NCBI GenBank assembly: GCA_018830285.1
Contig: JAHJSB010000055.1
Coordinates: 1 to 64,000 of the forward strand
From: Alphaproteobacteria bacterium
GTDB taxonomy: Bacteria > Pseudomonadota > Alphaproteobacteria > Caulobacterales > Hyphomonadaceae
Direction of reading: 5' to 3'
DNA length: 64,000 nucleotides
The notes below the pieces were generated by a model. The model had not been told where the DNA came from. It did no database searches and saw only the letters and a program-made list of their open reading frames with translations. The translations under genes and the position numbers were made by a program. Shown piece by piece: positions 47,634-50,861 of the stretch (position 1 is its first letter; the number at the start of each line of letters is the position of its first letter).

Positions 47634-48638
47634 TCAGATCGAGACGATGATCTTGCCGAAATGCTTTTGCGACGCCTGATGGGCGAACGCGTCCGCGATC
47701 TTGTCGAGCGGGAATGTCTGGTCCAGCACGGGTTTTATATTGTTCGCCTCGATCGCGGCGATCATGTCTTCCTGCATCGTGGCCGAGCCGACCGTGATGC
47801 CTGAAAGCGTGATGTTCATCGAGAACAGCGCCGCCGTCGGCACTTCGCCGGACACGCCTGTCAGCACGCCGATCAGCGAAATATGCCCGCCCATCTTGCT
47901 GGCCTGGATCGACTGGCCGAGCGTGCCGGGCCCGCCAATCTCGACGACCTCGTCGACGCCGCGCCCGCCGGTCAGGGCCTTAGCGGCCTTGCCCCAGTCC
48001 GGCGTGGTCTTGTAATTGATCAGGTGATCAGCACCCAGCGCCTTCAGGCGCTTCAGCTTCTCGTCGGATGATGAGGTCGCAATCACACACGCGCCAGCTG
48101 CCTTGGCGAATTGCAGCGCGAAGATCGAGACGCCGCCCGTGCCCTGCGTCAGCACCCAGTCGCCGGGCTTTATCTTTGCTTCGACCATCAATGCGCGCCA
48201 GGCTGTCAGCGCGGCGCACGGCAGCGTTGCGGCTTCTTCGAACGTATAGCCCTCAGGCATGCGCGTGAACGCCGTCTCGGGCGCCGCGACGAGCTCTGCG
48301 CCGAACCCATCGGCTCCGTCGCCCGGTACGCTGGCAAAACCGGCCATTTGCGGCGCGCCTGAATACCAGTTCGGGAAGAACAGGCTCAGTACCTTGTCGC
48401 CCGGCTTGAACCGGCTGGCGCCCTCACCGACGGCGATGACCTCGCCGGCCCCGTCCGACATCGGGATACGGCCATCGGGTGTCGGTATTCCGCCCATCAC
48501 GACAACGAAGTCATGATAGTTGAGACTGCTGGCTTTCACACGGACAAGGATCTCGCCCCGGCCCGGCTTCGGGTCCGGACGGTCTTCGATCACAAGGTTT
48601 CCGGGACCTCCCGGCTTTTTGACGGCGGCTGTTTTCAT
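47634..48638 (-). CDS. Zinc-binding dehydrogenase family (MDR, quinone-oxidoreductase-like)
   Basis: The 334-aa protein has the GroES-like N-terminal domain and a Rossmann NADPH-binding domain (GTGGVSIFALQFAKAAG at about 165). No structural-zinc cysteine cluster is visible, so it resembles the zinc-free quinone oxidoreductase group. The ATG at 48638, with GAGGAAG upstream, begins MKTAAVKKPG; the longer frame has no support. The substrate is unknown. Confidence 0.88.
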   Translation of the reverse strand: MKTAAVKKPGGPGNLVIEDRPDPKPGRGEILVRVKASSLNYHDFVVVMGGIPTPDGRIPMSDGAGEVIAVGEGASRFKPGDKVLSLFFPNWYSGAPQMAGFASVPGDGADGFGAELVAAPETAFTRMPEGYTFEEAATLPCAALTAWRALMVEAKIKPGDWVLTQGTGGVSIFALQFAKAAGACVIATSSSDEKLKRLKALGADHLINYKTTPDWGKAAKALTGGRGVDEVVEIGGPGTLGQSIQASKMGGHISLIGVLTGVSGEVPTAALFSMNITLSGITVGSATMQEDMIAAIEANNIKPVLDQTFPLDKIADAFAHQASQKHFGKIIVSI

Positions 48639-48699
48639 GGGGCGCTTCCTCTTCGCTTTGTCCGAACGTGGGTCGGCGACGCTAGGGAAGTCAAGCAGA

Positions 48700-49194
48700 T
48701 CAGTCCGGTGACGCGACAAGATTCACAGTGTAGCAGAACCGGCCGGCCTCGGGGCGCGGCGTGGCATAGTCGACATAGGCCGCCGGTACGCCCAGATAGA
48801 AGCCGCGCTCTTGCCCGCTGCCGGGACGCGCAAAGACCGCGCAAATCTCTGCATGCTGGTCGTCAACGGGATGAATCTCGAATGGCGCGCCCGTGATCGG
48901 GTCGTCCTTCCATTCCGCGTTGCTGCATCCAGCGGCCAGGCGCGCCTGCGAACCGGGATCGGCCATGGCCACGCGGACTGTGTCCATGTCCTCCGGCAGC
49001 GGGCCGACGCCCCGGCTGTAACAGTTCACCGCTCCGGCCGTCTCGATCAACGCCTGCAGGCGGGCGTCATCCTGCTGCTCCTCACGCGCCTGTCCCGGCC
49101 CGCCTATAATCGCGAGGCCCGCGACAATCGCGGCAACGGCCACCCCGACGAGCGCAACGGCCAGCCAGTCTCCGGATTCACTGGGAGTCCACAT
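48700..49194 (-). CDS. Pseudopilin-like membrane-anchored protein
   Basis: The 164-aa protein has one N-terminal membrane helix (about 10-32) and an extracytoplasmic domain. It has a helical DDARLQALIETAGAVNCYSR, then LPEDMDTVR, and the block DDPITGAPFEIHPVDDQHAE followed by ICAVFARP. This pattern is also known to me as the C-terminal part of some DUF5671 proteins. AAGGGAG precedes the ATG at 49194, and the gene overlaps the DUF5671 gene by 17 bp. The function is unknown. It is likely the partner of the upstream gene. Confidence 0.72.
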   Translation of the reverse strand: MWTPSESGDWLAVALVGVAVAAIVAGLAIIGGPGQAREEQQDDARLQALIETAGAVNCYSRGVGPLPEDMDTVRVAMADPGSQARLAAGCSNAEWKDDPITGAPFEIHPVDDQHAEICAVFARPGSGQERGFYLGVPAAYVDYATPRPEAGRFCYTVNLVASPD

Positions 49195-49831
49195 CGCCCT
49201 GGTCTCCCTTCTCCGCATCGCCGATGAAATAGGTGAAGATCGCCCCGGCGATCACGGCCACGACCACAGACTTGAGGACGAACCGCACGGTCAGGTCACC
49301 GCCGAGGAAATTGTACACGAGCGACATGCCGTCCCCGACCAGCGTGCACCCGGCGACCACGAGGCTGACATAAGTCAGCCACTTGCGAATGCGCGAGCGC
49401 TGCATTTGCGGGTTCCTGCGTCGCGCGCCCCGCAGGATATAGCCCAGCCAGAGGAAGATCGGAGTCGCCACCAGCAGGCCTGACACGCCGCTGCGCACCT
49501 GCGATTCCAGCCTGAAGACACGGTAGTCGTTCACGTTGGTCTTGTCGGGGAAGCCATATTCGATCAGCGCGAACAGCAGCGAGCCGAGACTGAACGAGAC
49601 GATGCCCAGCAGGATGAAGAAGAGAAGGTAGAAGAAGGCCTCGCGCGCGGACAGGTAAGGCTGCGGCCGGGGCACCGCGACCGGGAAGGCCACATCGGAA
49701 TAGGCCTCCAGCGCCGCATCGACCTCGGCCTTGCGCCAGCCGGCCTGATTCAGCGCGTCGAGTATGGCACTGCGCGATTCCCCGCGCTCCAGGCTCTGCT
49801 TGACGAATTCCACGAGCGTCTTGTCGGCCAT
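49178..49831 (-). CDS. DUF5671 domain membrane protein with N-terminal UBA-like helices
   Basis: The 217-aa protein starts with a small helical domain (3-42, LVEFVKQSLERGESRSAIL, GWRKAEVDAALEAY), then four membrane helices (about 65-90, 113-132, 150-175, 185-205) of DUF5671, including RIRKWLTYVSLVVAGCTLVGD. It ends in a charged tail (GDAEKGDQGDVDSQ). GAGGA precedes the ATG. The function is unknown. The overlapping downstream gene encodes the pseudopilin-like partner. Confidence 0.85.
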   Translation of the reverse strand: MADKTLVEFVKQSLERGESRSAILDALNQAGWRKAEVDAALEAYSDVAFPVAVPRPQPYLSAREAFFYLLFFILLGIVSFSLGSLLFALIEYGFPDKTNVNDYRVFRLESQVRSGVSGLLVATPIFLWLGYILRGARRRNPQMQRSRIRKWLTYVSLVVAGCTLVGDGMSLVYNFLGGDLTVRFVLKSVVVAVIAGAIFTYFIGDAEKGDQGDVDSQ

Positions 49832-49895: not shown

Positions 49896-50861
49896 TCAAA
49901 TCCCGGCGCGTTGCAGCAGGCGCTGGAAGCCTTCCCAGAATTCGGCCCGGCGTTCGTCGGTTTCCATCAGGATTTCATGCAGCGCGCCCTCAACGGTGAC
50001 ATGCTCGCAATCGGGAAGGCGGGCACAGACAGCCGCGTGCGAGGCATTGTCGACCAGCTTCTCTTCGCCGGCCGACGCGATGAAGACCGGGATGTTCACG
50101 GCGTTGAGGGCTTTGGCCTTGCCGAACGTCGACACGATATCGAGCGACGCCCCGAGCCAGCCCCACGTCACCGGGCCCAGTTCCAGTTCAGGCGCCGCAT
50201 CGCACAGGTCGCGCTGCACCTGCCAGCGGTGCTTGTCGTGCGTCACGATATTGGTCTCGAACGTCTCCGCCGGGCCCGGCTGCTGCGCATAATTGTCCGA
50301 CCGCCCCGTCACACGCATGGCCCATACGAGATAGCTCATGCCGAGGAATTTCGACTTGAGCCCCCACATCGGCGCACAAAAGGCGGCGGCCTCGACCTTG
50401 ACCAGGCCCTGCGCGATCGTGGCCAGCGCAATCGCGCCGCCCATGGAATGGGCCAGCGACACGTAAGGGCGCGGCAGCCTGTCGTCGAGCTTCTCCAACC
50501 CTTTGGCGAGCGCGCCCATGAAGGTCTCGAACCGGTCGATATGGCCTTTTTTCGTATCATCCAGCAGGCGGTCTGACAGGCCCTGGCCCGGCCAGTCGAT
50601 GATGACGACCGCAAAGCCCATGGCCTGCAGCTCGCGGGCGACCTCGAAATACTTTTCGATGAATTCTGTCCGGCCCGGGCAGACGATGACCGTGCCCCGC
50701 GGATTGTTATAGGTCAGCGCCGGGGCCATGCAGGCGCGCAGCGATCGTCCGGCACTGCCCTCGAACCAGACAATCTCGGCGCCGTCGGGCGCGGGATTGC
50801 CGGGCACAAGGACAAAGTCCTTGCGCTGACCGGCTTTGGCGGGGGCGGTCTTGTCAGTCAT
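49896..50861 (-). CDS. Alpha/beta hydrolase, lysophospholipase-like
   Basis: The 321-aa protein has HSMGG (about 141-145, nucleophile Ser142), VCPGRTEFIEKYFEVARELQ and DWPGQGLSDR, typical of the PldB/monoglyceride-lipase group (serine hydrolase_4). Asp and His of the triad lie in the C-terminal third (SAGEEKLVDN, ALHEI). It probably hydrolyses a lipid ester. The ATG has no Shine-Dalgarno: a terminator ends two bases before it. A GTG at codon 19, with AAGGA upstream, is an alternative start. Confidence 0.85.
   Translation of the reverse strand: MTDKTAPAKAGQRKDFVLVPGNPAPDGAEIVWFEGSAGRSLRACMAPALTYNNPRGTVIVCPGRTEFIEKYFEVARELQAMGFAVVIIDWPGQGLSDRLLDDTKKGHIDRFETFMGALAKGLEKLDDRLPRPYVSLAHSMGGAIALATIAQGLVKVEAAAFCAPMWGLKSKFLGMSYLVWAMRVTGRSDNYAQQPGPAETFETNIVTHDKHRWQVQRDLCDAAPELELGPVTWGWLGASLDIVSTFGKAKALNAVNIPVFIASAGEEKLVDNASHAAVCARLPDCEHVTVEGALHEILMETDERRAEFWEGFQRLLQRAGI

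Follow-up and report, generated by a model that had tools for sequence, protein, structure and literature searches.

The described families closest to the locus reported here are DUF5671 (PF18920) and the pseudopilins GspG and EpsG (T2SSG, PF08334). A literature search, with most subscription papers outside its coverage, returned no paper on DUF5671 or PF18920. The papers found on uncleaved or pilin-like domains do not name such a module in their titles or abstract openings. Fusions of the two parts may be visible in databases without having been described.

We analysed two overlapping genes on the reverse strand of the window, which is the whole 64,000-nucleotide stretch of DNA under study. 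The original prediction had described them as a two-gene module in which a DUF5671 gene is followed, with a 17-bp overlap, by a membrane-anchored partner carrying the pattern DDPITGAPFE/ICAVF. The open reading frames and a strong Pfam match of the first gene (E 1.8e-30) confirmed this arrangement. The features are listed below by their positions in the window.

49178..49831, reverse strand: gene A, DUF5671 membrane protein of 217 aa, ATG to TGA (PF18920 match)
49682..49831, reverse strand: N-terminal three-helix domain of gene A, residues 1-50 (helices in the model of the fused homologue L082)
48700..49194, reverse strand: gene B, single-pass protein with a predicted pilin-fold head, 164 aa, ATG to TGA (predicted model, profile similarity)
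49178..49194, reverse strand: overlap of genes A and B, 17 nt (TGA at 49178-49180, ATG at 49192-49194)
49105..49176, reverse strand: predicted transmembrane helix of gene B, residues 7-30 (AF2 helix; hydropathy peak at residue 21)
48841..48843, reverse strand: Cys118 codon of gene B, first of a conserved Cys pair (alignment; inside a model strand)
48733..48735, reverse strand: Cys154 codon of gene B, second of the conserved Cys pair (alignment of partners)

The PF18920 match of gene A scores 105.9 bits against a cut-off of 28.4 and covers residues 64-201. Gene B has no Pfam or NCBIfam match close to cut-off; its product has one N-terminal hydrophobic stretch and contains DDPITGAPFE and EICAVF. 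Purine-rich stretches lie upstream of both starts. An in-frame ATG further upstream would extend gene B to 172 aa, and the ATG of the 164-aa candidate start is aligned in two relatives (L003 and L007). On the same strand the pair is flanked by an alpha/beta hydrolase gene (49896-50861) and by an ORF for a zinc-type alcohol dehydrogenase (47634-48719). The five closest relatives keep both genes, with 66-71% identity for the partner and 78-90% for DUF5671, and their flanking genes are 88-93% identical. Since the two genes recur jointly in these relatives and in distant phyla, their pairing is not a chance arrangement.

We give a probability of about 0.62 to the reading that genes A and B encode one pilus-independent inner-membrane complex, a DUF5671 base with a pilin-fold head, which may act as a sensor or adaptor.

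Pairing of DUF5671 with its partner

DUF5671 has an almost constant partner. A profile built from the pair gave 163 DUF5671 hits at E ≤ 1e-6, or 145 proteins when identical sequences were counted once. Adjacency had been proposed as a check on the module, and the partner does adjoin DUF5671, directly downstream on the same strand, in 110 of the 145. In 33 others the two parts are fused, and two proteins are without a partner. For one of these (L104) the contig ends 28 bases past the last codon; the other (L141, whose genome also has L155) is truly orphaned, and the gene downstream of it resembles, by eye, a methyltransferase. Conversely, 29 of 30 loci found with gene B (L002-L031, the window included) carry DUF5671, the exception being L026, which starts at a contig end. 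The module was found in Alphaproteobacteria, Xanthomonadales, Chlorobi and Patescibacteria.

A search with gene B matched 32 of 105 genomes from the family of the window. With DUF5671, 22 of 398 genomes of the phylum matched (9 above cut-off), as did 16 of 369 in a second class (4 above cut-off) and 91 of 286 in the phylum Patescibacteria (75 above the family cut-off, counting the short ORFs that have no partner). The named loci are the 80 best of 150 and, having been found by two DUF5671 peptide patterns, lean to close relatives. Among loci L001-L190, 27 had no profile hit at E ≤ 1e-6 and were left out of the 145; these are L026 and 26 loci listed below the Pfam cut-off (L040-L053 and L057-L068). 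Gene B matches in genomes G104, G048 and G100 were left out of the locus counts.

The Patescibacteria gave 30 matches with loci and 20 further stretches, comprising 12 short ORFs and 8 longer, weaker matches. None of the 12 short DUF5671-like ORFs (L227-L238, 110-170 aa) lies beside a partner, which indicates that the pairing rule applies to full-length DUF5671. These short ORFs give weak matches to part of DUF5671 (in one case none by profile) and resemble a separate small membrane family. Four of the eight longer matches have a clear partner (E ≤ 8e-21), one has a weak one (2e-7) and three have none by profile. The three are L242, together with L244 and L246, which look like different proteins. 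L242 (1349-2011, reverse strand) is a DUF5671 ORF that runs into a fifth hydrophobic stretch and then a stop, with no pilin-like head. The weak Chlorobiaceae matches L208 and L209 contain neither of the two parts.

Several variants of the arrangement were seen. In Methylosinus trichosporium OB3b, the pair lies on the mobilizable plasmid pOB3b2 (L226:2992-4028, forward strand), where the annotated genes overlap by 4 nt and the partner is annotated as hypothetical only; the two plasmid records with a match both belong to this strain, and 50,697 phage records gave no match. One patescibacterial locus (L224:1477-3121, forward strand) has a DUF5671 gene followed by two tandem partner genes, and its genome (G930) also has a fused copy (L171). 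At two further patescibacterial loci (L241:1952-2881 and L243:1953-2768, both forward strand) the partners have extra C-terminal parts past the pilin-like head.

The original prediction had stated that both parts make one chain in some other bacteria. Such fusions are real, amounting to 33 of the 145 proteins, but the split form of the window is no oddity, being commoner in our sample (110 versus 33). Fusions prevail in Patescibacteria (22/30 loci). They were also seen in Stenotrophomonas, Lysobacter and Luteimonas, and in a single genome each of the window's class (L039) and the second class (L056). A tree built from the DUF5671 part, in which several long branches leave details unsure, requires 11 changes between fused and split forms, at least 8 of them forced by well-supported branches. 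The fused or split label was more clustered on this tree than in any of 500 shuffles (shuffle mean 29.9).

Reading frames of split pairs were compared by taking the start codon nearest to the stop of gene A in the partner's frame, which may differ from the true start. By this rule the partner overlaps gene A in 93 of 109 pairs (63 by 4 nt, 14 by 17 nt and 14 by 11 nt). In all 109 the nearest start is within 30 nt of the stop, and one further pair had no candidate start. We considered whether the split could be a frameshift or assembly artefact and rejected this, because overlapping frames recur in so many pairs. The changes on the tree and the recurring overlaps indicate that the pair interconverts and that the split arrangement in the window is one of its ordinary states. 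With overlapping frames, the two proteins would be made in matched amounts.

The DUF5671 protein

Gene A has four hydrophobic stretches (residues 59-95, 114-137, 154-173 and 175-208). The loop at residues 134-150, between the second and third of them, holds eight Lys or Arg residues with a net charge of +8, and by the positive-inside rule this would leave both ends of the protein cytoplasmic and the partner's head periplasmic. The argument hinges on that one loop, since the C-terminal tail has a net charge of -4 and adds no support to the topology.

The N-terminal domain is modelled as three helices (residues 2-17, 22-31 and 36-43 in the fused homologue L082) and is found in about 124 of 143 members, being gapped in 19. 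It had been called UBA-like, and with three predicted helices it may be so. No UBA family was among the 25 of 30 Pfam families shown for the domain; its weak matches include RepB_primase_C, RecX HTH1, RuvA_C and CUE. PDB sequence searches gave mostly designed proteins, aligned on this domain, for the DUF5671 profile and mostly designed helical proteins for the profile of the domain itself. When the domain was searched alone in 16 genomes, 14 had one match each at E ≤ 1e-14, always in the DUF5671 gene; of the other two, one (G930) gave two weak matches and one gave none.

Conservation was scored over 143 paired sequences. Within gene A, G178 is invariant, P124 and W151 are each kept in 142, R149 in 140, K187 in 139, D96 in 136, D167 in 135, R113 in 131 and R183 in 130, and E179 is also conserved. 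The near-invariant charges that lie in or near membrane helices (D167, K187 and R183) would suit a membrane transporter or enzyme, in which the DUF5671 bundle works through buried charges and the head serves as a lid or substrate-binding part. The same charges may merely hold the two halves together. The membrane bundle of the fused model also aligns with parts of ABC exporter membrane domains with Z up to 9.8, but values under about 13 are common for helical bundles, and we set this likeness aside as evidence of transport.

Nor do the neighbours suggest transport or catalysis. We clustered 315 flanking ORFs from 55 loci, those among the 80 named loci that a crude longest-ORF caller could use, and found no widespread neighbour and no functional hint. 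The top cluster occurs at 7 of the 55 loci, and the four largest are confined to Xanthomonadales relatives or Chlorobi. We regard a transporter or enzyme as improbable, though among the alternatives it fares best.

Fold and processing of the partner

The AF2 model of gene B, from a 61-row alignment, has a pLDDT of 90.9 and a pTM of 0.80. It shows a helix at residues 7-30, a break, a second helix at 33-62 and strands at 106-109, 114-121 and 151-158. VIA-align was run against the chains ranked highest by Foldseek (866 for this model). Its best eight rows are all pilins or pseudopilins, with Z from 5.5 to 3.7, and the first unrelated row has 3.3. The eight are a type IVb pilus subunit, EpsG, Clostridioides PilW, Pseudomonas PilE, two Pseudomonas pilins, a Vibrio type IV pilin and Dichelobacter FimA. 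Residues 247-350 of the fused model align with EpsG (3fu1) over 83 residues with Z 7.4, rmsd 2.8 and 17% identity; Z values of 4 to 7 on this scale are modest. Foldseek alone gave no PDB match at E ≤ 0.001 for the predicted models.

Profile comparisons point the same way. The partner profile aligned by hhalign with five GspG proteins at a probability of 92.9 and an E of 3.6e-7, a value that holds for a single comparison. Without the membrane helix the score to GspG was 28.3, and none of 150 column-shuffled controls exceeded 18.3. In a PDB sequence search, the top row for the partner profile was the geopilin N-terminal domain at E 0.15, which is not significant alone. T2SSG (PF08334) was absent from the Pfam matches of 61 partners at E ≤ 0.1. 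A long N-terminal helix packed on a small antiparallel sheet, which defines the pilin fold, is seen in the predicted models only. On the models and profiles, the partner probably has a pilin- or pseudopilin-like fold.

The conserved residues of gene B over the 143 pairs are P33, D42 and C118 (143 each), R37 (142), F121 (141), P67 (140), C154 (136, the remaining 7 being gapped) and R45 (130). C154 is invariant in the 61-row alignment, and C118 and C154 may form a disulfide.

A protein of this fold could be an unusual minor pilin or pseudopilin handled by a type IV pilus, type II secretion (T2SS) or Tad machine, with DUF5671 as its chaperone or docking protein. Besides the fold and the GspG-like sequence, this reading can draw on two T2SSG matches in the window's own genome and on platform genes (PF00482, GspF/PilC/TadB-C, which serve pilus, T2SS and Tad machines) in 13 of 18 host genomes of a mixed set. 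A working pilin is defined by its prepilin cleavage motif, which lies where the hydrophobic helix begins and has Glu at +5; the strict pattern of this motif was present in all five GspG controls but in none of 143 partners. The count stayed at 0/143 when the scan was widened to 45 residues before the domain, as some partner starts were set by rule of thumb. A looser pattern matched five partners, in no case at the start of the hydrophobic helix: three of the matches, the window's included, lie upstream of gene B's 164-aa start, and two lie inside the last DUF5671 helix. The original prediction had called the partner pseudopilin-like. For the fold this holds, by VIA-align and the GspG profile, but for function the label appears wrong, as judged from the sequences, which fail the defining test of cleavage.

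The distribution of platform genes may likewise speak against filament assembly. No PF00482 match was found in 5 of the 18 mixed-set genomes, whose completeness is unstated; one of the five (G857) has only an orphan DUF5671. Nine Chlorobiaceae genomes exceed the DUF5671 cut-off, each with the partner present, and PF00482 was not found in six of them, again of unstated completeness and with two genomes shared with the mixed set. Platform genes are present in 21 of the other 52 Chlorobiaceae genomes, which indicates that DUF5671 and the platform do not track each other in that family. PF08334 was not found in 4 of 12 genomes searched. A fused head, moreover, stays tied to a polytopic protein, and no gene recurs widely beside the module. 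With no cleavage motif, a frequent covalent link to a polytopic protein and genomes in which no platform gene was found, the head probably does not enter a filament by the normal route, and we rate the pilus-dependent reading marginally below that of a transporter or enzyme.

The proposed complex and known systems

The suggestion that the split parts form one complex gained support from the fusions (33/145) and from the adjacency of the two genes (110/145), from which we infer that the two proteins associate physically. Conserved charges occur in both halves (D96, R113, D167, E179, R183 and K187 in DUF5671; R37, D42 and R45 in the partner), and through them the halves may touch close to the periplasmic side. 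For the predicted interface that the original prediction had named as a check, the support is indirect. Modelled by AF2 from a 135-row alignment, the fused homologue L082 reached a pLDDT of 91.8 and a pTM of 0.83, and so high a pTM, which would be difficult to obtain for halves with no set relative position, argues for a fixed placement of the head on its base.

Covariation between the halves was computed by mean-field DCA on the 143 pairs (effective number 125, 326 columns). Within the parts the pairs were partly sensible, with 108-116 and 106-152 of the partner linking predicted strands. Three of the four strongest cross-pairs join the N-terminal domain to the head, which the proposed topology forbids. 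In 12 runs in which the pairing was shuffled, the largest value was 6.51, above the top real cross score of 5.59; the next nine real scores exceeded the shuffled maxima, though shared descent alone can cause such values.

The single orphan L141 might suggest that the two genes lie side by side only as remains of a gene that was split, with no working complex. This is very improbable, for the pairing has persisted in several phyla and despite at least 8 changes between fused and split forms, frames overlap in 93 of 109 pairs, both parts have invariant residues, and the hydrolase and alcohol dehydrogenase flanks stand beside the pair in only 5 of 28 window-family loci with any match (29 searched), the other 23 having no such flank within the span covered, about 1.5 kb either side or less at contig ends.

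The reading we prefer is therefore that of a fixed complex in the inner membrane, likely with the following architecture. The products of genes A and B would associate one to one. DUF5671 would supply four membrane helices and a small cytoplasmic three-helix domain, and the partner would add a fifth helix carrying into the periplasm a pilin-fold head closed by the putative disulfide. The head would be a former pseudopilin turned into a fixed subunit. It might sense or bind something in the envelope, with the DUF5671 base relaying this across the membrane or holding the head in place. Among the five closest relatives the head diverges faster than the base (66-71% versus 78-90% identity), as would suit a head that is exposed and faces a ligand, set on a better conserved base. 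As to activity, a fixed envelope sensor or adaptor is the likeliest guess, though a rather doubtful one.

It is possible, and here we are tentative, that the module represents a widespread class of devices that descend from subunits of type IV filaments but form no filament themselves, each a pilin-fold head kept permanently on a dedicated DUF5671 base and serving as envelope sensor or adaptor. On the same tentative reading such devices would range from Alphaproteobacteria and Xanthomonadales to Chlorobi and the ultra-small Patescibacteria, with some heads doubled or extended. The pilin fold would then seem to have been taken up as a fixed membrane subunit in a setting other than pilus and secretion machines. 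For DUF5671 itself, the analysis provides a partner, a predicted fold for that partner, a proposed topology and a list of residues to mutate, and these together make the family testable. The genomes of Patescibacteria are very small, so whatever they keep is of interest, DUF5671 (91 of 286 genomes) included.

A second architecture linking such parts was seen in a 509-aa patescibacterial protein (L225:100-1629, reverse strand). Like the module, it combines an N-terminal domain resembling the three-helix one of gene A (E 1.3e-5), a helix that by eye spans the membrane and a C-terminal domain similar to GspG, here in one chain; unlike it, the protein has a long middle region and no DUF5671 match, and its T2SSG score of 17.9 bits is below the cut-off of 21. 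Compared with DUF5671 as described in Pfam, gene A is a member well over cut-off, but the Pfam model stops short of the three-helix N-terminus and the partner, both of which lie outside it. With GspG and EpsG, the partner has in common a membrane helix running into a long helix, a conserved Pro turn, a DP-x-G-x-PY-like segment and a small antiparallel sheet. It differs from them in lacking the prepilin motif, in a conserved Gly-x-Pro break after the membrane helix, in its conserved Cys pair and in adjoining, or being fused to, DUF5671.
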